Of a stretch of DNA of 24,977 nucleotides, positions 9,297 to 24,977 are shown piece after piece. The position numbers and the translations under genes were made by a program. Each line of letters starts with the position of its first letter. Position 1 is the stretch's first letter. Origin of the DNA: Clostridiales bacterium (GTDB lineage Bacteria > Bacillota > Clostridia > Lachnospirales > Lachnospiraceae); contig JAJQIQ010000149.1 of assembly GCA_021199135.1 (NCBI GenBank), positions 1-24,977 on the forward strand, in the 5' to 3' direction. The notes beneath the pieces are model-generated. The model was given only the letters and a program-made list of their open reading frames with translations, was not told the origin of the DNA and ran no database searches.

Positions 9297-9330
9297 ATTC
9301 CTGGGCACAAACCGTGTCCAGGAATTTTTA
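9297..9330 (+). terminator. Intrinsic terminator ending the catabolic gene run
   Basis: ATTCCTGGGCAC (9297-9308) pairs with GTGTCCAGGAAT (9314-9325), 12 pairs including one G-T wobble, around a 5-base loop AAACC. A TTTTT run (9325-9329) follows at once. It lies 28 bases after the stop codon at 9269. Confidence 0.93.
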
Positions 9331-9485: not shown

Positions 9486-9514
9486 GTGACATTCATCGGA
9501 AAATGTGCTATAAT
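9486..9514 (+). promoter_or_regulatory. Sigma-A type promoter with extended -10 for the mannanase/transport operon
   Basis: GTGACA (9486-9491, five of six matches to TTGACA) is separated by 17 bases from a perfect TATAAT (9509-9514). A TG at 9506-9507 makes it an extended -10. Transcription would start near 9521, giving a leader of about 160 nt before ATG 9684. Confidence 0.85.
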
Positions 9515-9520
9515 ACATCC

Positions 9521-9683
9521 ATTCCAGTATATCTAACTGTGTCAACTGTGTGAAAAACATGTAAAAACATTGTGAAATTCCCTGTGGGGAGATTTTTCCT
9601 CACGATCCGCCGCAGGATGTAAATGGCGGATAAAAAAAGCTAAAAAAGGGTAAAAAAGATTAATTAAATTGGAGGGTCGGAAA
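9521..9683 (+). promoter_or_regulatory. Untranslated leader of the GH26/transport operon with short repeats and a hairpin
   Basis: Directly after the predicted start point, AACTGTGT is repeated at 9535-9542 and 9544-9551, and AAAAACAT at 9553-9560 and 9563-9570. ATCCGCC (9605-9611) pairs perfectly with GGCGGAT (9625-9631) around a 13-base loop, followed by A-rich DNA, so it is not a terminator. A weaker stem TCCC/GGGA (9579-9590) precedes TTTTT (9593-9597) and might act as a leaky attenuator. GGAGGG at 9671-9676 is the ribosome site. No known riboswitch class is recognised. Confidence 0.5.
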
Positions 9684-11324
9684 ATGATGTCTCATAGGCA
9701 TATTGCAAATCGCATACAGCGGCGGGGAATGGCGCGCAAGCTGGGCGCGTGCGCCCTCATAGCGGCGTTGCTCTGCGGGCTCTGCGCGGGCTGCGGAAGC
9801 TCAAGTTCTGGTTCGTCTGGTTCGGGCTCACAGGGTTCTACGGAAAGCAAATCCGAGGAATCGGTTTCCCAGCAGTCCACGGAGGCGGCGGCGGAGCAGG
9901 TAGCCGAGGAGGAGAAGGAGCCGTTCGTCGCGGAGGTCGTCGCATCGTGCGAGGCCGAGGACGCGGAGCTGCTCGGCGCTGTATACATCGACACCACCAC
10001 TTCGGGCTTCTCCGGCACCGGCTATGCGACCGGCTTTGCGAGCGATGACGACGGCTGCGCGTTCACGGTGGACATCCCCGAGGACGGCACCTACGACCTC
10101 GACTTCATCAGCGCCAGCGCCGGCCAGTACAAGGAGAACTTCGTCTATGTGGACGGCGAGAACGTGGGCTCAGCCGTCGTCGAGTCCGAATCATTCACGG
10201 ACTCCATCGTGCAGCGCGTGTACCTGGAGGCAGGGACGCACGAAGTCACCATTATGAAATCATGGGGGTGGATAGACTTGGACAGGCTTGACATATTGAC
10301 GACGGAGCCCATCGACTCCTCCATATACAACGTATCGGCCACGCTCTGCAATGCGAACGCCACGGACAATGCCAAGCGGCTCATGAGCTACCTGGCGGAC
10401 TGCTACGGGACCTCGATCCTGTCTGGCCAGTACTCAACGGATGGCCAGTACGGCAAGGAGTTCACAGTGGTCTACCGCGAGACCGACAAATACCCGGCAA
10501 TCCTCGGGCTTGACATGATTGAGTACAGCCCGTCGCGGGTGGCGCACGGCAGCACTTCGAACGCAGTGGATTACGCCATCCAGTTCTGGGAGAACGGCGG
10601 CATCGTGACATTCTGCTGGCACTGGAACGCGCCAGAGAAATACCTCACGGGTGACTGGTACAGCGGGTTTTACGCGGACAGCACGGATATCGACCTCGCG
10701 GCCATCATGAACGGCGAGGACGAGGAGGGCTACGACCTCCTCATGGATGACATAGACGCGATCGCCCAGGAGCTGTTGATATTGCAGGATGCCGGGGTGC
10801 CGATCCTCTGGCGGCCACTGCACGAGGCGAGCGGCGGCTGGTTCTGGTGGGGCGCGGCAGGCGCTGACGCCTACAAGCAGCTCTACATACTGCTCTACGA
10901 CAAGCTCACCAACGAATACGGTTTGAATAATCTGATATGGCTCTGGAACGGGCAGGACGCCGACTGGTATCCGGGAGATGAATACGTCGACATCATCGGC
11001 GAGGACCTCTATCCGGGCGAGCATGTGTACACCTCCCAGGCCGACACCTACTTCAAGGCCGTCGACTACACGAGCCCGGCCAAGATGGTCGTGATGGCGG
11101 AGAACGGCTGCGTCTTCGACCCTGACCTTGCGGTGCGCGACGGCGCGATGTGGGGCTTCTTCTGCACCTGGGGCGACGAGTTCGTGGCTAAGAGCTCAGG
11201 GATATACGCCTACAGCGAGCAGTACACGGAGAGCTCCATGCTTCAGAAGGCCTACGACAGCGATGTGGTCATCACGCTCGACGAGCTGCCGGACCTGACG
11301 ACCTATCCGATACGGGATGAATGA
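9684..11324 (+). CDS. Surface lipoprotein GH26 endo-beta-1,4-mannanase with CBM35-like module
   Basis: Predicted extracellular enzyme that cuts beta-1,4-mannan backbones (EC 3.2.1.78). Numbering from ATG 9684, the signal peptide ends in lipobox LCAGC (Cys37), followed by a Ser/Gly/Glu linker. Residues about 83-205 form a CBM35-like beta-sandwich (SCEAEDAELLGAVYI to GWIDLDRLDIL). Residues about 213-545 are GH26: acid/base E381 in WRPLHEASGGWFWWG and nucleophile E473 in MVVMAENGCVFD, with CWHWNAPEKY at 311-320. GGAGGG at 9671-9676 is 7 bases from ATG 9684; an in-frame TTG at 9669 lies upstream of that site and is rejected. It is the first gene of the operon driven from 9486. Its stop overlaps the next start (ATGA). 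Confidence 0.95.
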   Translation: MMSHRHIANRIQRRGMARKLGACALIAALLCGLCAGCGSSSSGSSGSGSQGSTESKSEESVSQQSTEAAAEQVAEEEKEPFVAEVVASCEAEDAELLGAVYIDTTTSGFSGTGYATGFASDDDGCAFTVDIPEDGTYDLDFISASAGQYKENFVYVDGENVGSAVVESESFTDSIVQRVYLEAGTHEVTIMKSWGWIDLDRLDILTTEPIDSSIYNVSATLCNANATDNAKRLMSYLADCYGTSILSGQYSTDGQYGKEFTVVYRETDKYPAILGLDMIEYSPSRVAHGSTSNAVDYAIQFWENGGIVTFCWHWNAPEKYLTGDWYSGFYADSTDIDLAAIMNGEDEEGYDLLMDDIDAIAQELLILQDAGVPILWRPLHEASGGWFWWGAAGADAYKQLYILLYDKLTNEYGLNNLIWLWNGQDADWYPGDEYVDIIGEDLYPGEHVYTSQADTYFKAVDYTSPAKMVVMAENGCVFDPDLAVRDGAMWGFFCTWGDEFVAKSSGIYAYSEQYTESSMLQKAYDSDVVITLDELPDLTTYPIRDE

Positions 11325-12025
11325 TGTCTTGGTGGAGACGTATATTTTCTTATGAGGGGACGCTGATCCAGGTCCTCGAGAAGATCGGAAAGGTGATTGT
11401 GGACAACATCATGTTTCTGGTCTGCTGCATACCGCTCGTCACCATCGGGGCGTCGCTGACGTCATTTTACTATGCGATGATAAAGAGCGTGCGCCGGGAG
11501 CGGGGGAATCTGATCCGTGAGTTTTTCTCCTCGATGAAGCGCATCATAGGCAAGGGATGCATATTCACGCTGGAAATAGCCGCGGTGGCGGTGGTGCTCC
11601 TGTTTGGCCTGAGGTATTCGATCGCGAGGGAGTCGCAGCAGCTGACTTTTTTGTATCTGATCCTGCTGGCGCTCTTTGGGATGGTGTCGATATACGTTTT
11701 TCCGGTGCTCTCGCGCTTTACGCTAAGTCACAAGGACATCTGGAAGCTGGCGTTCATCATGTGCTTTAAGCACTTCCTGACGACGATCATCATAGCGGCG
11801 GGGAGCGTGCTGATCGGATATTTGGTGATCTTCAGGCTGCCGATCGCCTGCATCTTGGTGGCGCCGGGCGCATGGTGCTACGTGATCACGTTTTTGATGG
11901 AGAAGGTTTTGCTTAAATATATGCCGCCTCCCTCCGAGGAGGACAGCGGCGAGTGGTACTACGAGAAGACCGGTTGGCAGAAATGGAAAGAAGCGAAGAA
12001 AGGAGCAAGGCATGAAAAGAAATAA
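11321..12025 (+). CDS. DUF624 (YesL-like) membrane protein
   Basis: Small integral membrane protein of 234 aa with about five hydrophobic segments, including VIVDNIMFLVCCIPLVTIGA near the N terminus, which is the typical DUF624 opening, plus FTLEIAAVAVVLLFGL, LYLILLALFGMVSIYVF and a later segment before the charged C terminus (EKTGWQKWKEAKK). This family is habitually found beside sugar ABC transporter genes in Firmicutes; its function is unknown, with an assembly or accessory transport role often supposed. It starts inside the GH26 stop (ATGA) and its 3' end overlaps the binding-protein gene by 14 bases, so it is translationally coupled on both sides. Confidence 0.85.
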   Translation: MMSWWRRIFSYEGTLIQVLEKIGKVIVDNIMFLVCCIPLVTIGASLTSFYYAMIKSVRRERGNLIREFFSSMKRIIGKGCIFTLEIAAVAVVLLFGLRYSIARESQQLTFLYLILLALFGMVSIYVFPVLSRFTLSHKDIWKLAFIMCFKHFLTTIIIAAGSVLIGYLVIFRLPIACILVAPGAWCYVITFLMEKVLLKYMPPPSEEDSGEWYYEKTGWQKWKEAKKGARHEKK

Positions 12026-15008
12026 GCGACTTAAGAAGACGGTGTCAGTCCTGCTTATCGTCGCCATGTTTTTCGGGATGTTGATGCAGGAGGGCGGGAC
12101 GAGCGTCTATGCCCAGACCGACAAGACGATGGACGATTACGACGACATCGTGAGCACTTATTCCGTCGACGACTCCATTCCGAGCTACAGCGAATATGTG
12201 ACGGAGTTCCCGCCCACCTACCCGGACGCGGAGGTGACGCTGGGCGCGGACGACTGCGTCCGCTACGACGAGAGCGACGAGTCGGCGGAGCCCGTCATCT
12301 ATACGGACTACGAGGGCATGGAGGGCGACAGCGTCTACACCAGCGAGGATTCCCTGGTCGAGTTTGAGGTGACCATCACGCAGGAGGGCTTCTACACCCT
12401 CTCCTTGGAATATTACCCAGTCGAGGGTAAGAACTCCGACATCGAGCGGAGCATCTTCATCGACGGCGAGCTCCCCTACGCGGAGTTGTCCACGATCGAC
12501 TTCAACCGCGTGTGGCAGTACGACGTGGATGAGGGCCAGGACGACGGCTCCGGCTCCGCGACATATTACTGGGAGAAGGACAACCAGGGCAACGACAACA
12601 AGCCCACGATGATAGAGACGCCGGAGTGGATGACCGAGTACGTCTACGACAGCAACGGCTATGTGACGTCGCCCCTGAGCGTGTATTTCACGTTGGGCAC
12701 CCACACGATCTCGCTGCTCTCCCTGCGCGAGCCGCTGCTCATCCACCAGATCATACTGAACAACGCCGATGAGACGCCGACCTACGCCGAGGTCAAGGCC
12801 GCCAATGATGCGGCGGGCGCGACTGACACGAGCGGAGTCTGCGTGACCATCGAGGGCGAGAACGCCACTAAGACCTCCTCCCAGATGCTCTATCCCATCC
12901 AGGATCAGTCCGCGCCTTCGCTTTCGCCGGTGAGCGCGAAGGAGCTTCTGAACAACACCATCGGAGGCAACTCTTGGCGCCTGGTAGGCCAGTGGATTGA
13001 GTGGGATTTCGACGTGCCCGATACCGGATACTACAACATATCCCTCCACGATTGCCAGAATTATGTGCGAGGCATCTATGTGTCGCGGCGTATCACGATA
13101 GACGGGGAGGTTCCGTTCGCCGAAATGGAAAACTACGGCTTCTCATTTGCCTCCAGCTGGCGCGAGGACGTCATCTCCGACGATGACGGCAACCCGTATT
13201 CCTTCTACTTGGAGGCGGGGCACCACACGATCCGCATGCAGGTCGTGCTGGGCGACTTCTCCGACATCATCAGCCAGGTTCAGGACTGCGTGACGCAGCT
13301 GAACAGCATATACCGGCAGGTCATAAAGATTACCGGCGTGTCCCCCGACACGTTCCGCGACTACCAGTTAGAGGCGACGCTGCCTGAGCTCAACGCCGAG
13401 CTGGTGGCGGTTCGCGACGAGCTCGGCGACGCGATCACGCGCCTGCAGGAACTCGTGGGTACGAAATCCGACAAGGAGACGGTGCTCATCACCATGCGCG
13501 ACCAGCTGGATGACCTGATCAAAGACGGCGAGTATTTCGTCCGCGTCATCAGCTCCTACAAGGTGAACGTCCGCGCCTGCGGCAACTGGATCACCGAGGT
13601 CATCGAGCAGCCGCTGGCCATCGACCAGATAAACATCTACTCCGCAGATCAGAGCGTGACCTACTCAAAGACCGGTTTCTTCGCGAAGGCCGGATATGAG
13701 ATCGTGCGGCTGTTCTATTCATTCATAATCGACTACAACCAGATCGGAAACGTCTCGGACAAGAGCGACGAGAACCCGACGCTGACGCTCTGGATTGGCA
13801 CAGGCCGTGACCAGGCGAACGTCATAAAGGCTATGATCGACGAGACGTTCACGAACACGTACAACATAAACGTCAACGTCCAATTGGTGGACATGAACAC
13901 GCTCTTGCGAGCCGAACTGGCCGGCGAGGGCCCCGACGTGGCCATACAGGTCGCCAACACAAACGGAATCGCGGGAGCTGTGCTGAACACGGGCAATGAC
14001 ACGCCCGTGAACTACGGCATCCGCAACGCGGTGCTGGATCTGTCACAGTTCGACGACCTGGACGAAGTGCTGACGCGCTTCTCCGACGCGGCGATAGTGC
14101 CGTTCCAGTTCAACGGCGCGACATACGCCTTGCCCGAGACGCAGACTTTCCCCGTAATGTTCTACCGCAAGGACATTTTGGCCGAGATAGGCTTGGACGT
14201 GCCCGAGACATGGGATGACGTGAAGGTCGCAATGGCGGTGCTGGCGCAGAACCAGATGGAGTTCGGAATGCTGCCCAGCGAGCAGATATTCGCGATGTTG
14301 CTGTATCAGAACGGCGGCTCCTACTACACCGAGAATGGCGACGCATCGATGCTCGACTCCGACATCGCCGTGAACGTCTTCAAGGAATACTGTGAGTTCT
14401 ACACCGACTACAAGCTGGATGAGTCCACGAGCGTGGAGGAGCGCTTCCGTACAGGTGAGTGCCCAATCATCATAGCCGACTATACAGACTACAACAACTT
14501 GGTCGTGTCCGCACCGGATATCGCCGGCCTCTGGGATTTCACCACGGTGCCCGGCACGGTGCAGGAGGACGGCACCATAGACCGAAGCACCGGTTCCACG
14601 GGACTTGCCAGCATGATAATGGCTGACACGAAGTACCCGGAGGCGTGCTGGGAGTTTCTGAAATGGTGGACCAGCGCCGACGTGCAGATCCAGTACGGGC
14701 GTGAGATGGAGAGCCTGATGGGATCCGCGGCCCGCGTGCCCACCGCAAACCTCGAGGCCTTCTCCAGCATGGCTTGGCCGGTCGACGACCTGGAGGCGCT
14801 TGAGGAGGCGTTCCAGTGGGTAAAGGGCATCCCGCAGGTACCGGGCGGCTACTACTCATGGCGAAATGTCAACAACGCTTTCTATACCGTCACGACGGAC
14901 ACGGACACGGCCTCCCCGAGGGAGGAGCTGATGGACAAGGTGCTCTACATAAACGCGGAGATCGACTACAAGCGCACGGAGTTTGGCCTGCCTCTGGCGG
15001 GAGAATAA
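12012..15008 (+). CDS. Giant modular ABC solute-binding protein (two beta-sandwich modules, helical insert, MalE-like domain)
   Basis: At 998 aa it is over twice the usual length. A signal peptide ends near SVYAQ with no lipobox Cys, so retention at the surface must use another route or partner. Module A (about 70-255) and module B (about 275-425) look alike: each has an EGFYTLSL/TGYYNISL strand, an IFIDGELPYAE/ITIDGEVPFAE strand and a LGTHTISL/AGHHTIRM strand. In B an amphipathic helical stretch (about 418-515, rich in L-x-x-x-L and charged residues) is inserted before the final strand QPLAIDQINIYS. The last about 410 residues (from LTLWIGTGRDQ at about 590) form a MalE-type binding domain with FNGATYALPETQTFPVMFYRKD and ACWEFLKWWTS. 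AAAGGAG precedes ATG 12012. It should capture manno-oligosaccharides for the permeases downstream; the ligand is inferred. Confidence 0.88.
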   Translation: MKRNKRLKKTVSVLLIVAMFFGMLMQEGGTSVYAQTDKTMDDYDDIVSTYSVDDSIPSYSEYVTEFPPTYPDAEVTLGADDCVRYDESDESAEPVIYTDYEGMEGDSVYTSEDSLVEFEVTITQEGFYTLSLEYYPVEGKNSDIERSIFIDGELPYAELSTIDFNRVWQYDVDEGQDDGSGSATYYWEKDNQGNDNKPTMIETPEWMTEYVYDSNGYVTSPLSVYFTLGTHTISLLSLREPLLIHQIILNNADETPTYAEVKAANDAAGATDTSGVCVTIEGENATKTSSQMLYPIQDQSAPSLSPVSAKELLNNTIGGNSWRLVGQWIEWDFDVPDTGYYNISLHDCQNYVRGIYVSRRITIDGEVPFAEMENYGFSFASSWREDVISDDDGNPYSFYLEAGHHTIRMQVVLGDFSDIISQVQDCVTQLNSIYRQVIKITGVSPDTFRDYQLEATLPELNAELVAVRDELGDAITRLQELVGTKSDKETVLITMRDQLDDLIKDGEYFVRVISSYKVNVRACGNWITEVIEQPLAIDQINIYSADQSVTYSKTGFFAKAGYEIVRLFYSFIIDYNQIGNVSDKSDENPTLTLWIGTGRDQANVIKAMIDETFTNTYNINVNVQLVDMNTLLRAELAGEGPDVAIQVANTNGIAGAVLNTGNDTPVNYGIRNAVLDLSQFDDLDEVLTRFSDAAIVPFQFNGATYALPETQTFPVMFYRKDILAEIGLDVPETWDDVKVAMAVLAQNQMEFGMLPSEQIFAMLLYQNGGSYYTENGDASMLDSDIAVNVFKEYCEFYTDYKLDESTSVEERFRTGECPIIIADYTDYNNLVVSAPDIAGLWDFTTVPGTVQEDGTIDRSTGSTGLASMIMADTKYPEACWEFLKWWTSADVQIQYGREMESLMGSAARVPTANLEAFSSMAWPVDDLEALEEAFQWVKGIPQVPGGYYSWRNVNNAFYTVTTDTDTASPREELMDKVLYINAEIDYKRTEFGLPLAGE

Positions 15009-15024
15009 TAGGGGGACTTAGGTT

Positions 15025-16047
15025 ATGTCAGAAAATACTGCGGCGGTTACCAAGAAGACGAGGCCGGTGAAAGAAAAACCGGTAAAGACGAAGCCGGAGA
15101 AAAAGGAGACGATGAACAAGAAGCTGGCGGAGATGTCGCCCATGAGGGCCAGGATGCACAGGATGGGCTACCAGATCAGGCGGAACAAGGCCTGCTATTT
15201 CATGATGGCGCCGTACTTTATCCTGTTCTTCATCTTCACGGTGGTGCCGGTGCTGATGTCAATAGTGCTCAGCTTCACGTACTTCAACATGCTGGAGGCG
15301 CCCACCTTCATCGGTTGGGGCAACTATATCAAGCTGTTCCTCGAGGACGACATTTTCATGATCGCGCTGAAGAACACGCTGATCTTCGCGGTAGTGACGG
15401 GGCCGGTCAGCTACATCCTCTGCCTCCTGTTCGCCTGGATCATAAACGAGTTCCACGGGAAGCTCCGCGCGTTCCTCACGCTAGTATTCTACGCGCCCAG
15501 CATCTGCGGAAACGCCTACATGGTATGGCAGCTGATCCTGTCCGGCGACCGCTATGGCTACTTAAACGGAATTCTCATCAGGCTCGGAATCATAGATGAG
15601 CCCATCCTCTGGATGCAGACTGAGAAATGGGTCATGCCGGCGCTCATCGTCGTGCAGCTGTGGCTGTCCCTCGGGACTGGCTTCCTGTCGTTCATCGCAG
15701 GACTCCAGACCGTGGACAAATCCCTGTATGAGGCGGCGGCGCTGGACGGCGTCAAGAACCGCTGGCAGGAGCTCTGGTACGTGACGCTCCCGGCGATAAG
15801 GCCGCAGCTAATGTTCGGCGCGGTCATGCAGATCACGCAGTCGTTCGCGGTGTCGGACATATCCATACAGCTGGCCGGCAACCCTTCAGTGAACTACGCC
15901 GGCGCCACGGTCGTCACGCACTTGCTCGACTACGGCACCACGCGTTTCGACATGGGCTATGCGTCGGCCATTGCCTCGGTGCTGTTCGCGCTGATGGTCG
16001 GCACTAACTTGCTCATTCAGAGATTGTTAAGGAGGGTCGGTGAATAA
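15025..16047 (+). CDS. Sugar ABC transporter permease, MalF/UgpA type (pair 1)
   Basis: Inner subunit of a carbohydrate importer, 340 aa with about six membrane segments. An unusually Lys-rich cytosolic N-terminal tail of about 60 residues precedes the first one (YFMMAPYFILFFIFTVVPVL). The ATPase-docking EAA loop is clear: YEAAALDGVKNRWQELWYVT at about 233-252, followed by LPAIRP. GGGGGA at about 15011-15016 supports ATG 15025, 16 bases after the binding-protein stop. Its own stop overlaps the start of the partner permease by one base (TAATG), as is usual for heterodimeric pairs. Confidence 0.95.
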   Translation: MSENTAAVTKKTRPVKEKPVKTKPEKKETMNKKLAEMSPMRARMHRMGYQIRRNKACYFMMAPYFILFFIFTVVPVLMSIVLSFTYFNMLEAPTFIGWGNYIKLFLEDDIFMIALKNTLIFAVVTGPVSYILCLLFAWIINEFHGKLRAFLTLVFYAPSICGNAYMVWQLILSGDRYGYLNGILIRLGIIDEPILWMQTEKWVMPALIVVQLWLSLGTGFLSFIAGLQTVDKSLYEAAALDGVKNRWQELWYVTLPAIRPQLMFGAVMQITQSFAVSDISIQLAGNPSVNYAGATVVTHLLDYGTTRFDMGYASAIASVLFALMVGTNLLIQRLLRRVGE

Positions 16048-16955
16048 TGAGAAGTCGTGAGAGAGAAATCGATCCCCGCATGAAAAAAGTGCATTTCTGG
16101 AACCGGCCTAAAGAGACTAAGCTGAACCGTTCCATGGCAGGAAACACGCTACTTTTCGTCATCATGATCATCTGCGGCATCTTCATGGCGCTGCCGCTCG
16201 TCATGATCATAAACAACGCGCTGAAGCCTCTGGACGAGATTTACCAGTTCCCGCCTAGGGTCTTCGTGCGGCATCCCACGCTGGAGAATTTCTCGGACCT
16301 TTTCGTCATCATGAGCGATTCCTGGGTCCCGTTCTCCAGGTATATTTTGAACACGATCATCATCACCGGCGGCGGCATGGTGGGACACGTCATAATCGCG
16401 TCCCTGGCGGCCTACCCGCTGGCGAAGCACGAGTTCCCGTTCAAGAGGATCCTCTTCCAGATGGTCGTGCTCTCGATGATGTTCTCATGGACGGTCACGC
16501 AGATCCCGCAGTATTTGGTGATCAGCTGGCTGCACATAAACAACACCTACGCCGCGCTGATACTTCCGGCCTGGTGTTTCGGCATGGGCCTTTACCTGAT
16601 GAAGCAGTTCATGGAGCAGCTGCCTGACTCGCTGATGGAGTCGGCGCGGCTGGACGGCGCGTCCGAGTGGAGCATATTCTGGAGGATAGTCATGCCGAAC
16701 GTCAAGCCCGCGTGGCTGACGCTGGCCATCTTCCAGTTCCAGCAGATGTGGGCGAACACGGGCTCCCTGTTCCTACGCGACGAGCAGCTCAAGCCTATGC
16801 AGTACGCGCTGCAGCAGGTCATCGCAGGAGGCACGGCGCGAGCCGGCGCAGGAGCCGCGGTCACGTTCATCATCGCGGCAGTGCCGATCATATTCTTCCT
16901 GTTCTGCCAGAGCAACGTCGTGGAGACCATGACGTCGTCCGGCATGAAGGATTGA
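16047..16955 (+). CDS. Carbohydrate ABC transporter permease, MalG/UgpE type (pair 1)
   Basis: Partner of the preceding permease, 302 aa. The first segment is NTLLFVIMIICGIFMALPLV, followed by a MalG-like external loop ALKPLDEIYQFPPRVF. The EAA loop reads SLMESARLDGASEWSIFWRI with MPNVKP. AAGGAGGG at about 16028-16035 is the ribosome site. No ATPase gene follows, so energy coupling must rely on a shared MsmK/UgpC-type ATPase encoded elsewhere, as is common in Firmicutes sugar importers. Confidence 0.95.
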   Translation: MRSREREIDPRMKKVHFWNRPKETKLNRSMAGNTLLFVIMIICGIFMALPLVMIINNALKPLDEIYQFPPRVFVRHPTLENFSDLFVIMSDSWVPFSRYILNTIIITGGGMVGHVIIASLAAYPLAKHEFPFKRILFQMVVLSMMFSWTVTQIPQYLVISWLHINNTYAALILPAWCFGMGLYLMKQFMEQLPDSLMESARLDGASEWSIFWRIVMPNVKPAWLTLAIFQFQQMWANTGSLFLRDEQLKPMQYALQQVIAGGTARAGAGAAVTFIIAAVPIIFFLFCQSNVVETMTSSGMKD

Positions 16956-16968
16956 TAGGAGGAGCGGT

Positions 16969-18471
16969 ATGAGGAGACGAAAGACATATCTCAAACTGGC
17001 TGCCCTTTGCATGGCGGCGCTCGTGGCGGCCTTGGTGCCGATGGAGTCGCTGTACGCGGACGAGCTTCCATATGAGACCTACACGTATGACTACTGGGAA
17101 AACATCGTCATCACCCCGGCGGCCTATGTGCCGGCGGGCAGCGTGACCGGGACGGACGTAGGGGCGGGCGAATTCAGCGAGCCGCAGGATTTCTGCCTGG
17201 ACGACGACGGCAACCTCTATGTCGCGGACACCGGGAACAACCGCATCGTCGTGCTCGACCCCACATATTCCGAGGTGCTGCAGGTCATCGACAGCTTCGA
17301 TATGCGCGGGACGACGAGCACGTTCGACGCGCCGTACGGGGTCTGCGTGTCCGAGAACGGCCAGCTCTACATTGCCGACTCCAACAACAGGCGGGTCGTG
17401 GTCCTGGAGCTGAACGGCGACTTCGTGAAGATCATCGACAACCCGCAGTCCGAGATCCTTGAGGACGGCTTCGACTTCGTGCCTCTCAAGGTCACGGTCG
17501 ACTATGCGGACCGCGTGTATGTCATCGTAAAGAACGCTTTCGAGGGAATCCTCGTGTTTGAGAACACCGGCGATTTCACCGGATATTTCGGAACCATCGA
17601 CGTGACGCTGACGCTCTGGGAGAAGTTCTGGAGGAGGCTTGCCAGCAAGCAGGAGCGCGCCAAGTCACAGCTGTACATCCCGACCGAGTTCACGGGCATC
17701 GACATCGACAGCGACGGCTTCGTTTACGCGTCAAACATCGACTCAGAGGGCGAGCAGGGCGTGCGCCGGTTGAATCCCCGAGGGGAGGACGTCATCCAGA
17801 AGGGCGAGAATGGCAACGTCGGCGGCGACATCGTGACCGGCACCTACGGCACGTACAGCGGCCCGTCCGAATTCACCGACGTGGTGTACCGGGGCAAGGG
17901 AATGTACTCTGCGCTCGACCGCAAGCGCGGGCGCATCTTCACATACGACAAGGAGGGCAACCTGCTCTATATCTTCGGCGGGCTTGGCAGCCAGGAGGGG
18001 ACCTTCAACACGCCTATCGCCATAGAGTCGACGGACAGCCAGATCCTGGTGCTCGACGCCTACTACGGCTCCATCCTGCTGTTTGACGCCACGGAGTACG
18101 GGCAGCTGATAAACGATGCGGTCGGCCTCCGCTACGACGGCGACGAGACAGAGGCCATCGCCAAGTGGGAGCGCGTGCTCGAGCTGAATGAGAACAACGA
18201 GCTGGCGAACACCGGTATCGGCAAGGCATACCTGACCGCCGGCGACAACAAGACGGCGATGAAATACCTCAAGCTCGGAATGAACCGGAAATATTATTCC
18301 ATCGCATGGAAGCGCTACCGCAACGAGATCCTCTCGAACAACATCGGCTGGATCCTGACAGTGATAATAATTGTCATCATCTTGCTCATCGTATACTTTA
18401 GGATTATCCGCCGCCACTTTGGCAAGCACAAGGGCGAGAAAAAGAAGAAGCAGGAGGGGCTGTTGACATGA
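16969..18471 (+). CDS. Extracellular NHL beta-propeller protein with TPR segment and C-terminal membrane anchor
   Basis: A 500-aa protein with signal peptide (cleavage near LYA-DE, residue 30), then about six NHL-type blades to roughly residue 385, for example DDDGNLYVADTGNNRIVVLD and SENGQLYIADSNNRRVVVLE. A TPR-like helical pair follows (about 390-450, AIAKWERVLELNENNELA). One membrane segment (about 458-478, ILTVIIIVIILLIVYFRII) precedes a Lys-rich tail. Topology should be propeller and TPR outside, tail inside. NHL propellers bind proteins or glycans; a scaffold, sensor or substrate-docking role is inferred. The gene starts 13 bases after the permease (GGAGG site) and overlaps the Yip1 gene by ATGA. 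A lactonase-type enzyme is less likely given the membrane anchor. Confidence 0.8.
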   Translation: MRRRKTYLKLAALCMAALVAALVPMESLYADELPYETYTYDYWENIVITPAAYVPAGSVTGTDVGAGEFSEPQDFCLDDDGNLYVADTGNNRIVVLDPTYSEVLQVIDSFDMRGTTSTFDAPYGVCVSENGQLYIADSNNRRVVVLELNGDFVKIIDNPQSEILEDGFDFVPLKVTVDYADRVYVIVKNAFEGILVFENTGDFTGYFGTIDVTLTLWEKFWRRLASKQERAKSQLYIPTEFTGIDIDSDGFVYASNIDSEGEQGVRRLNPRGEDVIQKGENGNVGGDIVTGTYGTYSGPSEFTDVVYRGKGMYSALDRKRGRIFTYDKEGNLLYIFGGLGSQEGTFNTPIAIESTDSQILVLDAYYGSILLFDATEYGQLINDAVGLRYDGDETEAIAKWERVLELNENNELANTGIGKAYLTAGDNKTAMKYLKLGMNRKYYSIAWKRYRNEILSNNIGWILTVIIIVIILLIVYFRIIRRHFGKHKGEKKKKQEGLLT

Positions 18472-19100
18472 AAAAATATTTTTCTGGAGACAAATGGAAA
18501 TATGCCTTCTACACCGTCAGCCACCCCATGGATGCCTACTATGAGATCCGGCATCGGGACCGTGGCAGCGTGCCGATAGCGATTATTTTCGTCATCTTGT
18601 TTTCGTTCACGTTCTCGATAAACAGGATCGGCGCCAGCTTCGTGGTGAACGACACCGACCCGTCCACCGTGAACGCGGCGACGGAGCTTGTCGCCGTGCT
18701 GATGCTGTACGCGCTCTTCTGCATAGGCAACTGGTCAATCACCTGCCTGATGCAGGGCGAGGGGCGGCTCAAGGATATCACGATCGCCATCGGCTATGGG
18801 TTCATCCCGATGATCGTCTGCATAAACATCGGCACCATCGTAAGCCAGGCGGTCGCGAAGGATGAGGCGGCGTTCTACTACCTGATCTGCGGAATCGGGA
18901 TCGCGTACGGCCTCGTCATGATGTTCATGGGCATCATGACCGTGCACAACTACACGCTCGGCAAGGCCATACTGACGGTTATCCTGACCTTCGTGGCCAT
19001 GCTGATAATAATTTTCTTGGTACTGTTGTTCATCGATCTGATCAACCAGGTATTCAGCTTCTTCCGCAGCATATACCAAGAGCTGATCTACCGCACCTAG
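18468..19100 (+). CDS. Yip1-family integral membrane protein
   Basis: A 210-aa protein with about five membrane segments: VPIAIIFVILFSFTFSI, ELVAVLMLYALFCIGNW, a GFIPMIVCINIGTIVS segment, LICGIGIAYGLVMMFMGIMT and a long segment ending IIIFLVLLFIDLINQVF. The N terminus KYAFYTVSHPMDAYYEIRH resembles the opening of bacterial Yip1 proteins (P-x-x-x-F-x-x-I/R pattern). Function unknown. It starts within the stop of the NHL gene (ATGA) and ends 11 bases before the DUF5696-like gene, with AGGAGGAGG as that gene's ribosome site. Constant coupling to these two neighbours suggests it is a membrane partner of theirs. Confidence 0.75.
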   Translation: MKKYFSGDKWKYAFYTVSHPMDAYYEIRHRDRGSVPIAIIFVILFSFTFSINRIGASFVVNDTDPSTVNAATELVAVLMLYALFCIGNWSITCLMQGEGRLKDITIAIGYGFIPMIVCINIGTIVSQAVAKDEAAFYYLICGIGIAYGLVMMFMGIMTVHNYTLGKAILTVILTFVAMLIIIFLVLLFIDLINQVFSFFRSIYQELIYRT

Positions 19101-19111
19101 GAGGAGGGGAC

Positions 19112-21694
19112 ATGAGCAGAAGCAGAAAAATCATCATTGCCGTCGTAGCGATCATAGTGCTCATCGCCGCCATCGTGTTCCTCAGGTGGGTGGTGCATTA
19201 TCGCATGTACAATGTGTACAAGAACGACCTGTCTTCCTATGAGTACGAGGAGGGCACGACCTACCAGGCGCTGAGCGAGACCATCTCCGACGTGAAGGAG
19301 ATGGATCTTGTGGCGGAGAACGACACGCTCAAGCTCTATGCCGACACCGAGACCGGATATGTCGCGGTGGTCGACAAGAGGAACGGCCAGATCACGTACT
19401 CCAACCCGCTCGACGCGGACGACGACCCGGTTGCGAACACGGCGAACGTGAATTACCTGAAGTCGCAGCTCGTGGTGGATTACTTCAACACGTCGAGGAC
19501 GCAGGGCACCTTCGACTCATACAGTTATTGCACCAGCCTGGGCCAGCTCGAGGTGGAATCCATCGAGGACGGCATACGCTTCATATACACCATCGGCGAC
19601 CTCTCGAGCGCGACGGGTATCGTGCCGCAGTACATCAGCGTGGACACGCTGAACGACGTGATATCAAAGCTCCCTGACGACGAGGCGAGCTTCGTGTCCA
19701 AGAAATATATTGACAGCAAGGTGGCCGACAACTACATGGAGCTTCTGGAGTCGGCGGTCAGCGGCGCTTCGCAGCTCCGTAAGCTGAACACCTACTTCGA
19801 GGAGGTGGGATTCACCGAGGACGACTACATTCGCGAGATGGAGGGATCCGGCGTGGAGGGCGCGGTGCCGATTTCCTTCGTGATTCCGCTTGAGTACCGC
19901 CTGGACGACGACGCGGTCGACGTCTCCATACCGATGTGCGCCGTGGAGGAGAACGGCGGCGGCACGATTTACCGCATCCAGATGCTGCGCTACTTCGGCG
20001 CGGCTGGGACGGACGAGGACGGATACATGCTGGTGCCGAATGGCTCCGGCTCACTGATAAACTTCAACAACGGCAAGAGCTCCGTGGAGAATTATTCCGA
20101 GTATGTCTACGGGATGGACCTGCTGACGGCCGACTACACCGTCGTTGAGAACACAGAGGACACGAAGATGGCGCTGTACGGGATTTTCCGCGACGACAGC
20201 AGCATCTTCGCGACGATAGAGGACGGCGCGTCGCTGTCGTACCTCACGGCGGGCGTGTCCGGAAAAGTGAATTCATACAACTACGTCTACCCGACGTTCG
20301 TGCTGAGGGGCAACGACAAGCTGTCGATGTTCGGCACGACCGGAAACGAGGCTGACCTGCCGATCGTGGAGACGAAATTCTACGATGTGGACCTGACGGT
20401 GAAGTACACGATGCTCGCCGGGGACGAGACGGACTACTCGGCAGCCGCCAACTATTACCGGGAGCGCTTGGTGAGCGAGGGGGCGCTGACGGATGACGAG
20501 AGCGGCGATGGCGACATCAAGTTCTATTATGACGTCCTGGGAGGCGTCAGCAAGAGCAGGTATTTCCTGGGGATCAAATACACCGGCACCTATTCCATGA
20601 CCACGTTCGCGCAGGCCGAGGAGATTTCGGACGACCTGGCGGCGAGCGGCATCACGAACCAGGTGATGAACTTCCAGGGCTGGATGAACCGCGGCTACTA
20701 CCACGACGTGGTGAACCAGATCCACGTCATGGGCAAGCTGGGCGGCAAGTCGGGCCTGAAGAGCCTGAACAGCACCGTGTCTGAGAACGGCGGCATCCTG
20801 TACGCCGACGTGGCGTTCCAGAAGGTGACGGAGATCAGCCGGCGGTACTCTTCGAACAGCGAGACATCCCGCTACTACGGCGGCGGCTATATCGCGGACT
20901 TCGGCCTCGTCAATCCGGCGACGATGCGCCGGACTTCAGGCCTTGGCTACAACGCGAACCTTTACTACCTGATTTCGCCCAAGTTTTTGGTGCGCTACGT
21001 GAATAAGTTCACGAACAAGATTGGCAATTACGACGTGGACGGCATCTCCCTGCGCGACCTAGGCGACGAGCTGCACTCCGACAAGAAGAGGACGGCGGTC
21101 ATAAACCGCGAGGAGGCGCTGGACGTGGTGCTCGCGTCACTGCAGCAGGTTGACGACGTCGGCAAGAACGTCCTGCTGAACAACAGCAACGACTACGCCT
21201 TCGCCTACGCCGACGACATCATAAACGTGCCGCTAACCGGAAATAACTACTACATCATCGACGAGGACGTGCCGTTCTACGAGATGCTGATTCACGGCTA
21301 CATAGACTACTCCGGGGACGTGATAAACTTAAGCGACTCATCGGACATCACGGACATAGTCCTAGAGCTGGTGGAGGCCGGCGCCTCACCGCACTTCATG
21401 TTCTCCTGGGAGTCATCCAGCGAGCTGAAGAACACGGCATTGAACCGTTTCTACTCCATCCAGTATGACAACTGGAAGGACACGGCGGTGGACATATATG
21501 AGCAGGTGAACGGCGCACTCCAGTACGTGAGCGGCTCCGCGATCGTAAAGCACGAGATCATAAGCGACGCCCTGAGGGCCGTCACATATGACAACGGCGT
21601 CACGATCTATGTCAACACCGGCACACAGGACGAGACGGCGGATGGCATTACTGTACCGGCCAGAAGTTATGCAGTAAGGGGAGGGCAGTCATGA
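19112..21694 (+). CDS. DUF5696-like membrane-anchored protein with glycoside-hydrolase-like architecture
   Basis: An 860-aa protein with one N-terminal membrane segment (about 7-28) and the rest probably outside. Residues about 64-460 are beta-rich and resemble the supersandwich domain preceding TIM barrels in families such as GH31 or GH101 (DTLKLYADTETGYVAVVDKR). Residues about 470-770 look like a TIM barrel: FYYDVLGGV, NFQGWMNRGYYHD, GGILYADVAF, DVDGISLRDLGDEL, GKNVLLNNSNDYAFAYAD. Acidic candidates for catalysis are D566, D643, D649 and D652. A small C-terminal beta domain (VTYDNGVTIYVNTG) also fits glycosidases. The DUF5696 label is from memory of Firmicutes families seen with Yip1 and ABC permeases; enzymatic activity is a hypothesis. 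Its stop overlaps the next permease start (ATGA). Confidence 0.7.
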   Translation: MSRSRKIIIAVVAIIVLIAAIVFLRWVVHYRMYNVYKNDLSSYEYEEGTTYQALSETISDVKEMDLVAENDTLKLYADTETGYVAVVDKRNGQITYSNPLDADDDPVANTANVNYLKSQLVVDYFNTSRTQGTFDSYSYCTSLGQLEVESIEDGIRFIYTIGDLSSATGIVPQYISVDTLNDVISKLPDDEASFVSKKYIDSKVADNYMELLESAVSGASQLRKLNTYFEEVGFTEDDYIREMEGSGVEGAVPISFVIPLEYRLDDDAVDVSIPMCAVEENGGGTIYRIQMLRYFGAAGTDEDGYMLVPNGSGSLINFNNGKSSVENYSEYVYGMDLLTADYTVVENTEDTKMALYGIFRDDSSIFATIEDGASLSYLTAGVSGKVNSYNYVYPTFVLRGNDKLSMFGTTGNEADLPIVETKFYDVDLTVKYTMLAGDETDYSAAANYYRERLVSEGALTDDESGDGDIKFYYDVLGGVSKSRYFLGIKYTGTYSMTTFAQAEEISDDLAASGITNQVMNFQGWMNRGYYHDVVNQIHVMGKLGGKSGLKSLNSTVSENGGILYADVAFQKVTEISRRYSSNSETSRYYGGGYIADFGLVNPATMRRTSGLGYNANLYYLISPKFLVRYVNKFTNKIGNYDVDGISLRDLGDELHSDKKRTAVINREEALDVVLASLQQVDDVGKNVLLNNSNDYAFAYADDIINVPLTGNNYYIIDEDVPFYEMLIHGYIDYSGDVINLSDSSDITDIVLELVEAGASPHFMFSWESSSELKNTALNRFYSIQYDNWKDTAVDIYEQVNGALQYVSGSAIVKHEIISDALRAVTYDNGVTIYVNTGTQDETADGITVPARSYAVRGGQS

Positions 21695-22698
21695 GACCAA
21701 TCATAAATCGGGAGAAAGAGCGCGAGGAAGAACAGGTGAAAGAGCGCGTGAAAGTGCGCGCGGTGGCGCGCGAGCGGGAGCCCAGAATTAAAAAGAGAAG
21801 GCTTTCCCTGAGCCAAAGGCGGGGGATATCGGGGCTCCTGTTCATACTGCCCTGGCTGATCGGGTTCATCTGGTTCTACGCCAGGAGCCTGTTCATGACC
21901 GTCCAGTTTTCCCTGTCGGACCTGACGGTGAACACCGGCGGCGGTTACAGCTTGGCATTCGTGGGGCTCCAGAACTTCATATACGCGTTCCGGGTGCACC
22001 CGACGTACAAGCAGGTGCTCGTCACCTCCCTCGGCAACATGCTCATAGACGTTCCGCTGATCACGTTCTTCAGCCTGTTCATGGCCATATTGCTGAACCA
22101 GAAGTTCAAGGGGAGGACGCTTGTCAGGGCGATTTTCTTCCTGCCGGTCATCCTGAGCTCCGGCGCGATATCGGACGCAATGGATTTGGCCAGGACCATG
22201 ATGAGCGGCGGCATTTCGTCCGCCAGCGCCGAGATGGCGGCGGCCACCACGACCGGCGTGAGCGTGCAATACTACATACAGATGTTCAGCGCGCTCGGCA
22301 TACCGCAAAGCCTGATAGAATATGTCTCGGGAGCCGTGAACCGGATAAGCGACATCGTGAACGCCTCGGGAATACAGATAATCATATTCATAGCGGCCTT
22401 GCAATCCATACCGAGCTCGATGTACGAGGTGGCGAAGATCGAGGGCGCTACCAGCTACGAGACATTCTGGAAGGTGACCTTCCCGATGGTGCTGCCTCAC
22501 GTCATCACGAACATAGTCTACACGGTGGTGGACAGCTTCACGAATTCCGACGTGGTGGATTTGGCGTACACCACGGCGTTCGAGGACATGAATTACGGGC
22601 TGAGCTCCGTGTTCAGCTTGGTGTCCACGGTGATAACATGCCTGATACTCGTGATTGTCTGTCGATTTATACAGAAGCGAACGTTCTACTATAATTAA
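21691..22698 (+). CDS. Sugar ABC transporter permease, MalF/UgpA type (pair 2)
   Basis: Second inward permease of the locus, 335 aa. A highly charged Arg/Glu/Lys cytosolic tail (about 45 residues) precedes the first segment ISGLLFILPWLIGFIWFYAR. The EAA loop reads YEVAKIEGATSYETFWKVTF with PMVLPH. A long extracellular part between membrane segments (about 165-225, SSASAEMAAATTTGVSVQYY) is larger than in pair 1. It is coupled by ATGA to the DUF5696-like gene, which suggests the two products work together. Sequence differs clearly from pair 1, so this is not a recent duplication. Confidence 0.94.
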   Translation: MRPIINREKEREEEQVKERVKVRAVAREREPRIKKRRLSLSQRRGISGLLFILPWLIGFIWFYARSLFMTVQFSLSDLTVNTGGGYSLAFVGLQNFIYAFRVHPTYKQVLVTSLGNMLIDVPLITFFSLFMAILLNQKFKGRTLVRAIFFLPVILSSGAISDAMDLARTMMSGGISSASAEMAAATTTGVSVQYYIQMFSALGIPQSLIEYVSGAVNRISDIVNASGIQIIIFIAALQSIPSSMYEVAKIEGATSYETFWKVTFPMVLPHVITNIVYTVVDSFTNSDVVDLAYTTAFEDMNYGLSSVFSLVSTVITCLILVIVCRFIQKRTFYYN

Positions 22699-22715
22699 GG
22701 GAAAGGGGAAAAGAG

Positions 22716-23744
22716 ATGGAAAAGGCGAAAACCGAAGGAAAACCGGTCATCAAGGAAAAGCTCGCCACCGCGAGCAAAAAATACCATGAGTTCATGGATG
22801 ATGCCCAGTTCGTCAACGACCGCCAGCGCTGGATCAACAACGGCAGGAAGTTCATCATGTTTTTGTTCAAGCTGGTCATCATCGTGGGCGTGTGCTACGT
22901 CATCCTAGGTCCGGTGATTGGAATTATCAGCAGCTCTTTTTTCTCCGATGCGGATAATTACAACCCGATGGTGTACCTGATTCCGCAGGCGCCAACGCTT
23001 GACCGCTACAAAGTGGCGATGCAGTACTTAAATTACTGGAAGACGATGTTTTCATCGCTCCTGTATTCCGGTACGCTGATGGTCATCCAGGTGTTTATCT
23101 GCTCGATGGTTGGATACGGGTTCGCGAGGTTTGACTTCCCGCTGAAGAAGATTCTCTTCGCCCTCGTGGTCGTCATGATCGTCATCCCGACGCACACCAT
23201 CATGCTTCCGCTGTACATGACGTTCGCGCAGTTCGACGTGTTCGGCCTCATCAAGCTGTTCACGGGGAGCGCGATAAACCTCCTGTCCACGCCGGTGCCC
23301 ATGTACATCATGACGTTTTTTGGCTGCGGGCTGAGGTCAGGGCTCTACATCTACATATTCAACCAGTTTTTCCGAGGCCTCCCGAAGGAGATCGAGGAGG
23401 CGGCGCTGGTGGACGGAGCCAGCACTTGGTACACCTATTTGCGCATCATGCTGATAAACGCGCTTCCGTCCGTCGTCACTGTCGCCATATTCTCACTGGT
23501 ATGGCAGTACAACGACACGTTTTATGCGAAACTGTTCCTGATCAGCGACAGCATCGTGATCAGTAAAAAGATATCTACGATAGAGGCGTCCATTTCCAAC
23601 GTGGAGAAAATCCTGGATCCAAACATCCTGGAGCTGTACGTGGATGCCGGAATCGTGCTGATCATGATACCGATAGTAATCATCTACATCGCATTGCAGA
23701 AACAGTTTATTGAAGGCGTTGAACGGAGCGGTATCGTCGGGTAG
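22716..23744 (+). CDS. Carbohydrate ABC transporter permease, MalG/UgpE type (pair 2)
   Basis: Partner of the preceding permease, 342 aa with a cytosolic N-terminal region of about 45 residues, then FIMFLFKLVIIVGVCYVILG. The EAA loop is IEEAALVDGASTWYTYLRIM. The external loop NPMVYLIPQAPTLDRYKVAM is MalG/LplC-like. The ribosome site AAAGGGGAAAAG lies just before ATG 22716. No ATPase follows. A lipoprotein gene begins 52 bases downstream without a visible terminator between. Confidence 0.94.
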   Translation: MEKAKTEGKPVIKEKLATASKKYHEFMDDAQFVNDRQRWINNGRKFIMFLFKLVIIVGVCYVILGPVIGIISSSFFSDADNYNPMVYLIPQAPTLDRYKVAMQYLNYWKTMFSSLLYSGTLMVIQVFICSMVGYGFARFDFPLKKILFALVVVMIVIPTHTIMLPLYMTFAQFDVFGLIKLFTGSAINLLSTPVPMYIMTFFGCGLRSGLYIYIFNQFFRGLPKEIEEAALVDGASTWYTYLRIMLINALPSVVTVAIFSLVWQYNDTFYAKLFLISDSIVISKKISTIEASISNVEKILDPNILELYVDAGIVLIMIPIVIIYIALQKQFIEGVERSGIVG

Positions 23745-23796: not shown

Positions 23797-24977
23797 GTGA
23801 AAGCAAAGAAAATCATGGCGATTTTGCTCGGCGCTACGATGGTTGTGGGCTTGGCGGCCTGCGGCAGCAGCACGGATGAGAGCGGAAACGCCAACACTGA
23901 GGAGGCTTCCACCCCTGCTACGGAGGTGGAACAGGAGGAAGAAGAGCCTGCCGCAGTGGAGGACATCGGCGATGTCAGCATCGACTTCGAGGACGGCTCA
24001 TACAGCTTCGTCGGCACTGACAAGACCGTGACTTCCGCCGCTTCAGATCTGACCATTTCCGTGGCGGATTTCAACGGCTCCAAGGCCCTCAAGGTTGAGG
24101 GCACCGGCAGTGGCGACTATGTGGGAATCCAGATGGATGCTCTTTTGGGCGACAGCATCTCGAGCGTGGCGAGCGTGGAGATGAGCATCGGCTCAGAGAA
24201 CCCGGACGGCACCTTCTACTCCACTGCGGGATGCATTTATGGGTTCATTGGCGAGAACAATGACAAGAATTATGCGGAATGGTCCGTATATCTGGAGGAG
24301 GCCAATCCAAAGAGGGTCAGCTACACCGTGCCGGACGGCTACACCTGCACGGAGGGCAACTACCTGGTAGTTTCCCTGGAGACGGACACTGGGTATGACA
24401 AGGGGGATTCCCCGGCAATACTCTACATCGACGACATAGCGTTCAAGGATGCCTCCGGCAATGTCCTTAGCGCTGACACATCCGCTGAGTATGCGGCGGC
24501 AGACACTGGAGAAGATCGCACGAACCTCGGCGGCATCGCAAATGCGGTTGAGTTCGAGGGCTTCAGCACCAGCGGCGACGGCTGGGCGCAGGACGGCTTC
24601 GACATGCCGCAGGAGATCATCGATGCGCTCGTTCCGGGCTCCGTAGTTGAGATCAGCTACAGCAGCGACACCGGCAATATCTGGCTGGTAATGCCGGATG
24701 CAGATGCGGGCTGGATGCGCGTAGGCGTGGGCGATCTGGACAGCAGCGGCTCAGACAGCTCATACTACAACAGCTCAAGGACCACGGCTCAGGTCACCTA
24801 CGAGCAGATCGCGGCGGTATGCGGCGACGACGTATCGACCTGGGGCGGCAGGATGCAGTGCGAGTCCGACGGCGCTTGGGAGGTATACTCCATCAAGGTC
24901 GGCACGCTGGTTCCGAACTACACCCTGACGGATGCCGTGAACTTCGAGGGCTTTGCCACCAGCGGAGACGGCTGGGC
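23797..24977 (+). CDS. Lipoprotein with repeated beta-rich carbohydrate-binding-like modules, 5' part (runs off window)
   Basis: Starts at GTG 23797 behind a strong AAAAGGAGGA site (23781-23790) and stays open for 393 codons to the window end. The signal peptide ends in lipobox LAAC (Cys22) and an acidic Glu-rich linker follows. Residues about 60-220 form a jelly-roll-like module that begins VSIDFEDGSYSFVG and ends AILYIDDIAFKDASGN, reminiscent of mannan-binding CBM families such as CBM27. Then a module starts NAVEFEGFSTSGDGWAQ at residue 249 and a second copy starts DAVNFEGFATSGDGWA at 379, a 130-residue period. No catalytic domain is reached. It may be a further mannanase, a binding protein for permease pair 2 or a non-catalytic glycan binder. 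Confidence 0.8.
   Translation, partial: MKAKKIMAILLGATMVVGLAACGSSTDESGNANTEEASTPATEVEQEEEEPAAVEDIGDVSIDFEDGSYSFVGTDKTVTSAASDLTISVADFNGSKALKVEGTGSGDYVGIQMDALLGDSISSVASVEMSIGSENPDGTFYSTAGCIYGFIGENNDKNYAEWSVYLEEANPKRVSYTVPDGYTCTEGNYLVVSLETDTGYDKGDSPAILYIDDIAFKDASGNVLSADTSAEYAAADTGEDRTNLGGIANAVEFEGFSTSGDGWAQDGFDMPQEIIDALVPGSVVEISYSSDTGNIWLVMPDADAGWMRVGVGDLDSSGSDSSYYNSSRTTAQVTYEQIAAVCGDDVSTWGGRMQCESDGAWEVYSIKVGTLVPNYTLTDAVNFEGFATSGDGW
24541..24977 (+). repeat. 130-residue module repeated in tandem in the terminal lipoprotein
   Basis: The coding motif (N/D)-A-V-x-F-E-G-F-x-T-S-G-D-G-W-A begins at base 24541 and again at 24931, exactly 390 bases apart. Only the start of the second copy is in the window. 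Conserved Trp and Gly positions suggest two copies of a small beta-sandwich binding domain. Confidence 0.75.

Follow-up and report, generated by a model that had tools for sequence, protein, structure and literature searches.

Eight consecutive genes of a Clostridiales bacterium (family Lachnospiraceae, assembly GCA_021199135.1) were characterized computationally on contig JAJQIQ010000149.1, whose 24,977 nucleotides (nt), referred to here as the window, were analysed over their full length. These genes, located at positions 12012–23744, encode a large solute-binding protein (SBP1), two permease pairs (P1 and P2, P3 and P4) and, between the pairs, an NHL/TPR propeller protein, a Yip1-domain membrane protein and a protein of the family DUF5696. 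The eight genes constitute one conserved unit, as is strongly supported by the linkage, order and co-divergence of the accessory trio and both permease pairs and by the absence of module exchange. Since they occur nearly always together in related plant-fibre-degrading bacteria, they most likely form one uptake machine, and it is considered probable that, in fibre-degrading Bacillota, they constitute a single uptake apparatus in which two CUT1-like type-I ATP-binding cassette (ABC) importers share a surface assembly. The genes are the following:

12012..15008, + strand, SBP1, solute-binding protein (Pfam SBP_bac_1, structure model)
15025..16047, + strand, P1, first-pair permease with EAA loop (BPD_transp_1)
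16047..16955, + strand, P2, first-pair permease, UgpE/MalG-like under NCBIfam cut-offs (BPD_transp_1)
16969..18471, + strand, NHL beta-propeller and TPR protein with one C-terminal transmembrane segment (Pfam, hydropathy)
18468..19100, + strand, Yip1-domain membrane protein (Pfam, hydropathy)
19112..21694, + strand, DUF5696 protein, membrane-anchored ectodomain with GH129/GH101-like fold (Pfam, fold, alignment)
21691..22698, + strand, P3, second-pair permease (BPD_transp_1, tree of permeases)
22716..23744, + strand, P4, second-pair permease with EAA loop (BPD_transp_1, tree of permeases)

The list, order, coordinates and overlaps of these genes given in a preliminary description of the window were all correct on re-inspection. 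The genes are co-directional, with overlaps of 1–4 nt or gaps of 11–17 nt; spacings to the previous stop are +16 (SBP1-P1), -1 (P1-P2, TAATG), +13 (P2-NHL), -4 (NHL-Yip1), +11 (Yip1-DUF5696), -4 (DUF5696-P3) and +17 (P3-P4).

Conservation of the eight-gene cassette

DUF5696 was matched in 79 of 200 genomes of the same family (59 over the cut-off) and, at E <= 1e-30, in 37 of 398 genomes of the phylum; none of 14 control genomes had a match over the cut-off. Long DUF5696 genes were present in 43 of the 200 same-family genomes, and in every one of these at least one copy is preceded by Yip1. Yip1 was then sought in these 43 genomes and in 36 genomes of the phylum (own genome excluded). In the same-family set (75 rows down to E 7.7e-48, with the window included and weaker rows, partly GH129-like enzymes, dropped) Yip1 was immediately upstream on the same strand, 431–1501 nt away, in 71 of 75 DUF5696 places, and one more pair was found by fetching the locus, giving 72/75. 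The three exceptions were two short paralogs, with open reading frames (ORFs) of 560 and 584 amino acids (aa), and a partial match in genome G016, apparently from a gene divided over two contigs. In the phylum set Yip1 was directly upstream in 54/55 places, the exception starting 478 bases from a contig end; this count sets 55 of 56 DUF5696 rows (own genome left out) against 55 hand-picked Yip1 rows, and the Yip1 rows omitted can only lower it. The gene-neighbourhood search suggested earlier as a check on co-occurrence did not refute the proposal: the accessory genes are not found together only rarely, with Yip1 directly upstream of DUF5696 in 126/130 places when both samples are pooled.

Yip1 was located in a long ORF in 28/71 same-family places (>400 aa) and in 34/54 phylum places (>600 aa). 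All ten long Yip1 ORFs that were scanned carried NHL above the cut-off together with Yip1, the latter above the cut-off in nine and at 22 bits in L090; in G039:C143 such an NHL-Yip1 fusion adjoins DUF5696. The fused or split state required four changes on the tree of 61 DUF5696 proteins, a tree that has no support values and counts L084, with its truncated NHL ORF, as unfused. Genomes G239, G261, G281, G334 and G364, from two other families, have 8–17 Yip1 places each, mostly in ORFs of ~680–840 aa as in NHL-Yip1 fusions, which suggests that they may hold many cassettes per genome.

The order SBP1 (>=900 aa)-P1-P2-NHL-Yip1-DUF5696-P3-P4 was found in 45/61 neighbourhoods, namely the window and 60 that were fetched, chosen among higher-scoring matches that had sufficient flanking sequence; this count includes L045 and L074, with the Yip1 ORF taken from the profile-search listing, and L050, with P3 read as two ORFs. 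Nine of the 16 misses are cut by contig ends (L032, L037, L051, L052, L055, L059, L067, L075 and L084), and in L085, L088 and L090 SBP1-P1-P2 follows the trio instead of preceding it, with both P3 and P4 present in L085. Alignment A1 comprised 27 of the 29 relatives in L002–L030, with L016 and L027 left out. The same order was present in 58 of 80 loci from named genomes (here and below, among the matches listed), which were scanned with an 8-member DUF5696 alignment and are biased to the window's own clade; short SBP1 ORFs (L106, L151, L180) were accepted. Seventeen of the 22 misses look cut by contig ends, and L107, L110, L120, L144 and L152 have another ORF where P2, Yip1 or P4 was expected. 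Full cassettes were found in Lachnoclostridium phytofermentans KNHs2131 (L155), Clostridium sp. KNHs205 (L145) and Thermoanaerobacterium butyriciformans (L163), and also in four genomes of 6.5–7.3 Mb from another family (L071–L074, L076, L087).

Pairwise distances of the eight proteins correlate with r 0.91–0.97 (42 of the 45 full cassettes). Each of P1, P2, P3 and P4 falls into a clade of its own with 42 members, which indicates that both permease pairs are old and have kept their positions. Since common descent of the host species could by itself yield such correlations, six genomes with two cassettes were used: for each of the three module pairs, 12/12 comparisons showed a closer fit of the module to its own cassette than to the paralog, so the block has been inherited whole in this sample.

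Protein components

SBP1 comprises 998 aa and matches SBP_bac_1 (Pfam, E 1.2e-20). Its structure model (pLDDT 87.4, pTM 0.84) contains beta-sandwiches at residues ~58–255 and 276–413, a helical hairpin (414–531) and a MalE-like solute-binding domain (590–990), and the comparison with 5ysb_A gave a TM-score of 0.80 by target length and 0.33 by query. A Pfam scan assigned no family to the N-terminal part, all matches being far below the cut-off. As a lipobox-like pattern was found in only 4/46 SBP1 proteins, with only that of L056 judged convincing, SBP1 would usually be secreted or held via its N-terminal helix, and it may dock to a membrane partner.

BPD_transp_1 was above the Pfam cut-off in all four permease genes. 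Among 42 cassettes an EAA-like pattern was present in P1 of 22, P2 of 39, P3 of 36 and P4 of 40; a stricter pattern matched only P1 and P4 within the window. All four permeases score under NCBIfam cut-offs and resemble ordinary sugar permeases. A second solute-binding protein (SBP2) is encoded <=5 genes beyond P4 in 36/44 and 61/63 cassettes of two sets, counting those with enough downstream sequence, with a lipobox pattern in 34/36 and 46/61 of these proteins, respectively. No ATPase domain was detected in the eight proteins by Pfam. The window is one contig (C214) of a metagenome-assembled genome of 1.57 Mb and 74% completeness, whose closest named relatives belong mostly to the Lachnospiraceae and in which one OB_MalK match (ORF of 381 aa) is on another contig. 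The lack of an ATPase gene among the eight, together with this MalK-type ORF elsewhere, agrees with the proposal of a multitask ATPase in C. phytofermentans (PMC4452783) and with the unlinked MsmK of A. bescii, which powers a transporter in a species where two solute-binding proteins serve one permease (PMC12838199); these and the following literature statements refer to the available parts of the cited papers.

The NHL/TPR protein matches NHL (Pfam, E 9.5e-15), with TPR matches below their cut-offs, and has hydrophobic stretches at the N-terminus (10–28) and near the C-terminus (462–480), corresponding to an ectodomain, one transmembrane segment and a short basic tail. The Yip1 protein has five hydrophobic segments and matches the Pfam family Yip1 (2.6e-14, 53.9 bits against a cut-off of 28.6) over profile positions 3–172 of 173.

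The window DUF5696 protein matches its Pfam family (PF18952) with E 2.7e-191 and has a single N-terminal hydrophobic segment (6–24, hydropathy); its ectodomain matches the GH129/GH101 fold over the whole length, as beta-sandwich, TIM barrel and beta-sandwich. The positions of GH129/GH101 relatives that we take to be catalytic were mapped by hhalign, with a register uncertain by ~1 residue near D649: D649 is kept, and N690/N691 align with E477/E478 of soluble relatives. A conserved nucleophile and acid/base were sought in 61 DUF5696 proteins and were not found; both aligned positions are acidic in 11/61, while P721 and N739 are present in 61/61. The proposal that this protein trims oligosaccharides is weakened accordingly: its glycosidase fold stands, but the trimming is doubtful, as the aligned pair lacks conservation and reads D/N in the window protein. 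The fold would suit an active surface exo-glycosidase of the GH129/GH101 clan that trims oligosaccharides before import and is served by the propeller and Yip1; given asparagines at the aligned acid/base, and since solved GH129 enzymes, as far as their available descriptions go, act on alpha-GalNAc or 3,6-anhydrogalactose, unlike mannan or xylan, this explanation is regarded as improbable.

A soluble family of ~630–720 aa (L091–L102, from same-family genomes, 54–76% identical to L091) has invariant D and EE motifs, and Pfam matched GH101 in all four members that were scanned. Its members are probably active GH129-clan enzymes that Pfam puts under DUF5696. Their alignment (A2) used 11 of 14 fetched loci, with L101 masked and L103 and L104 left out as short DUF5696 paralogs.

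Genomic context and substrate

Other features of the window were located as follows:

9297..9325, + strand, terminator-like hairpin before the operon (a lead only: 15 sites found against 9.8 expected)
9486..9514, + strand, sigma-70-like promoter match, 11/12, with TG before the second hexamer (a lead only)
9669..11324, + strand, GH26 beta-mannanase with CBM35 (GH26 8.5e-73, CBM35 8.2e-21; TTG start as listed)
11321..12025, + strand, DUF624 membrane protein, MusI-like (Pfam DUF624 1.1e-9)
23797..24977, + strand, CBM65 lipoprotein, truncated by the contig end

The GH26 gene overlaps that of DUF624 by 4 nt, which in turn overlaps SBP1 by 14 nt, and the CBM65 lipoprotein gene starts 52 nt after P4. 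With GH26 and DUF624 in front, and the hairpin and promoter match before GH26, the transcription unit is likely larger than the eight genes; as 11 promoter-like sites were found against 7.8 expected, the promoter match and the hairpin serve as leads only. The DUF624 gene is directly ahead of SBP1 in many other Lachnospiraceae cassettes too.

The 5' half of the window is a beta-mannan locus with an AGE-type epimerase, GH130, CE2, an SGNH esterase, a GH1-phosphomannose isomerase fusion, a second SGNH esterase and GH26-CBM35. The fusion (5591–7906) is a single ORF of 771 aa in which a GH1 beta-glucosidase is joined to a phosphomannose isomerase comprising a type I catalytic domain and a cupin domain. 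The mannan genes are preceded by an acidic, repetitive ORF of 265 aa (22–819), which has EEPTVDIPDMEPL among its repeats and matched no Pfam family.

The flanks of other cassettes were scanned for 159 of 211 long unlabelled ORFs, in two lists of 77 and 82 proteins of which the first 25 families each were considered (in the second, among the matches listed). Counts per list, where one figure stands for one list, were CBM65 12, GH130 8, GH43 5 and 6, GH10 2 and 2, GH67 2, GH26 1 and 4, GH3 2 and 5, arabinofuranosidase C-terminal domain 2 and 7, and pectate lyase 1. Judging from these enzymes, the substrates could be mannan, xylan, arabinan or pectin, so the cassette looks like a general plant-polysaccharide device. 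Mannan, the substrate assumed in the preliminary description, is supported for the window copy only, by its GH26, GH130, CE2/SGNH, AGE and GH1-phosphomannose isomerase genes; as a general rule it does not hold, with GH10, GH67, GH43, arabinofuranosidase, GH3 and pectic-lyase genes beside other cassettes. A role in export or surface-glycan assembly was rejected, as the flanks look catabolic.

Proposed mechanism and relation to known systems

The proposed apparatus would consist of two importers, SBP1/P1/P2 and P3/P4 with the lipoprotein SBP2 usually encoded just downstream. Judged by their families, extracellular GH26 and CBM proteins would cut and hold the polysaccharide. SBP1, with its own beta-sandwich modules and helical arm, would dock to the assembly and there capture long oligosaccharides. 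Together with Yip1, the NHL/TPR propeller on its transmembrane stalk may act as a scaffold that recruits both permease pairs, a role suggested by the NHL-Yip1 fusions and by the precedent of YknW, a member of the Yip1 family able to modulate, via a composite interface, how the ABC transporter YknXYZ is assembled (PMC4887032). By analogy, Yip1 is a candidate assembly partner. DUF5696, with a GH129-fold ectodomain and a decayed catalytic pair, would be a sugar-binding or gating platform and not a hydrolase. An unlinked multitask ATPase of the MalK/MsmX type could power both pairs, and esterases, phosphorylases and isomerases, again by family, would complete the degradation. Conservation, gene order, co-divergence, fusions, fold and motif loss were observed directly in the sequences and models; the physical complex, the scaffolding, the sugar binding by DUF5696, the transport, the length of the substrate and the hand-over of chains are inferred.

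A more speculative form of this proposal, which we hold only tentatively, is a supercomplex of Gram-positive bacteria dedicated to polysaccharide import and similar in function to the Sus systems of Bacteroides: the propeller and Yip1 would physically bridge two ABC importers, and DUF5696, as a retired glycosidase, would be a chain-end receptor presenting long decorated oligosaccharides to SBP1 and handing them between both translocators.

Several observations weigh against a single uptake apparatus. R. intestinalis imports beta-mannan oligosaccharides with one solute-binding protein and two permeases (PMC6385246), so mannan uptake in itself does not require the accessory proteins. SBP1-P1-P2 is missing beside the trio in 4/61 neighbourhoods (L064, with the NHL gene also unrecognised, L077, L081 and L083, itself cut downstream), and just one of P3 and P4 was recognised in L088 and L090. 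Short DUF5696 paralogs without NHL or Yip1 exist in L194 (G030:C8:62062-63354), where two permease genes come after, and L195 (G051:C156:9610-10938). The window protein and most members of its clade retain D649, leaving catalysis by a non-canonical acid possible. Of eight Yip1 places not listed beside DUF5696, five had no cassette part nearby and three (G173) do lie in cassettes; Yip1 alone, widespread also in 7/14 control genomes, does not mark this system. Finally, co-inheritance might also reflect shared regulation or sensing.

Beta-propellers are common in sensors, and the NHL/TPR-Yip1-DUF5696 trio could be a receptor at the cell surface, monitoring substrate or transporter occupancy and inducing genes in response, like transporter-coupled sensors. 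The ectodomain, single transmembrane segment and short basic tail of the NHL protein would agree with this, as would the regulators in the flanks (LacI 5 and 2 members in the two lists, AraC 2). However, none of the eight proteins has a signalling output domain according to Pfam, no kinase was among the first 25 families of either flank list, and the trio sits between permease genes; sensing is thus considered unlikely. Two ordinary, independent ABC importers with unrelated hitch-hiking genes, held only by the operon, would accord with the ordinary character of each permease and of SBP2 as a lipoprotein solute-binding protein, but this very improbable explanation was rejected on the linkage, the NHL-Yip1 fusions, the co-divergence and the absent module exchange.

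The favoured arrangement, a shared uptake apparatus, resembles CUT1 maltose-type importers in its MalE-like fold, paired permeases with EAA loops and absence of an ATPase gene from the block, and differs from them in its two permease pairs, its modular SBP1 and its three constant extra proteins. MusI, of the DUF624 family, is an accessory of the maltose importer MusEFGK2I. The window likewise has a DUF624 gene beside a CUT1 solute-binding protein gene, but its product (65.4 bits) is under the MusI_fam cut-off of 160 (NCBIfam) and DUF624 is not among the constant eight. The beta-mannan loci of Roseburia and Faecalibacterium share the logic of GH26 (Roseburia), GH130, epimerase, CE2 and GH1 (PMC6385246, PMC8262883). 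That of R. intestinalis has a single permease pair, whereas the window has two with three accessories between, and F. prausnitzii has a similar transporter and one hypothetical protein; NHL, Yip1 and DUF5696 are not mentioned in the available parts of these two papers. YknWXYZ, the Bacillus SDP-toxin efflux pump, is alike in having a Yip1-family protein as ABC-transporter assembly partner, but it works in export, belongs to a different ABC type and includes a membrane fusion protein; it is a system for which a propeller, a GH-fold protein or a solute-binding protein is not described in the available part of the source. GH129/GH101 glycosidases share the whole-ectodomain fold with DUF5696, which differs in its membrane anchor and unconserved catalytic pair.

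In titles and abstract starts of the open-licence PMC literature, no paper was found that names DUF5696, that deals with MusI, or that describes the cassette under combinations of Yip1, NHL, ABC transporter and substrate; for 'YIP1 family protein', the bacterial transport work followed up consisted of YknW and bacteriocin-cluster papers. Nor is the cassette described in the available parts of papers on P. taichungensis xanthan use, on the genome, CAZymes and evolution of C. phytofermentans, on B. producta and on mannan use by Bacillota. The Gram-positive uptake systems compared have, in the portions available, one permease pair with one or two solute-binding proteins. As far as could be seen, each part belongs to a known family and the conserved ensemble is uncharacterised. 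The proposed shared apparatus includes three constant proteins of unassigned function and, if true, would assign a function to DUF5696 as well as to propellers that some sources name 'gluconolactonase' or 'YncE'.
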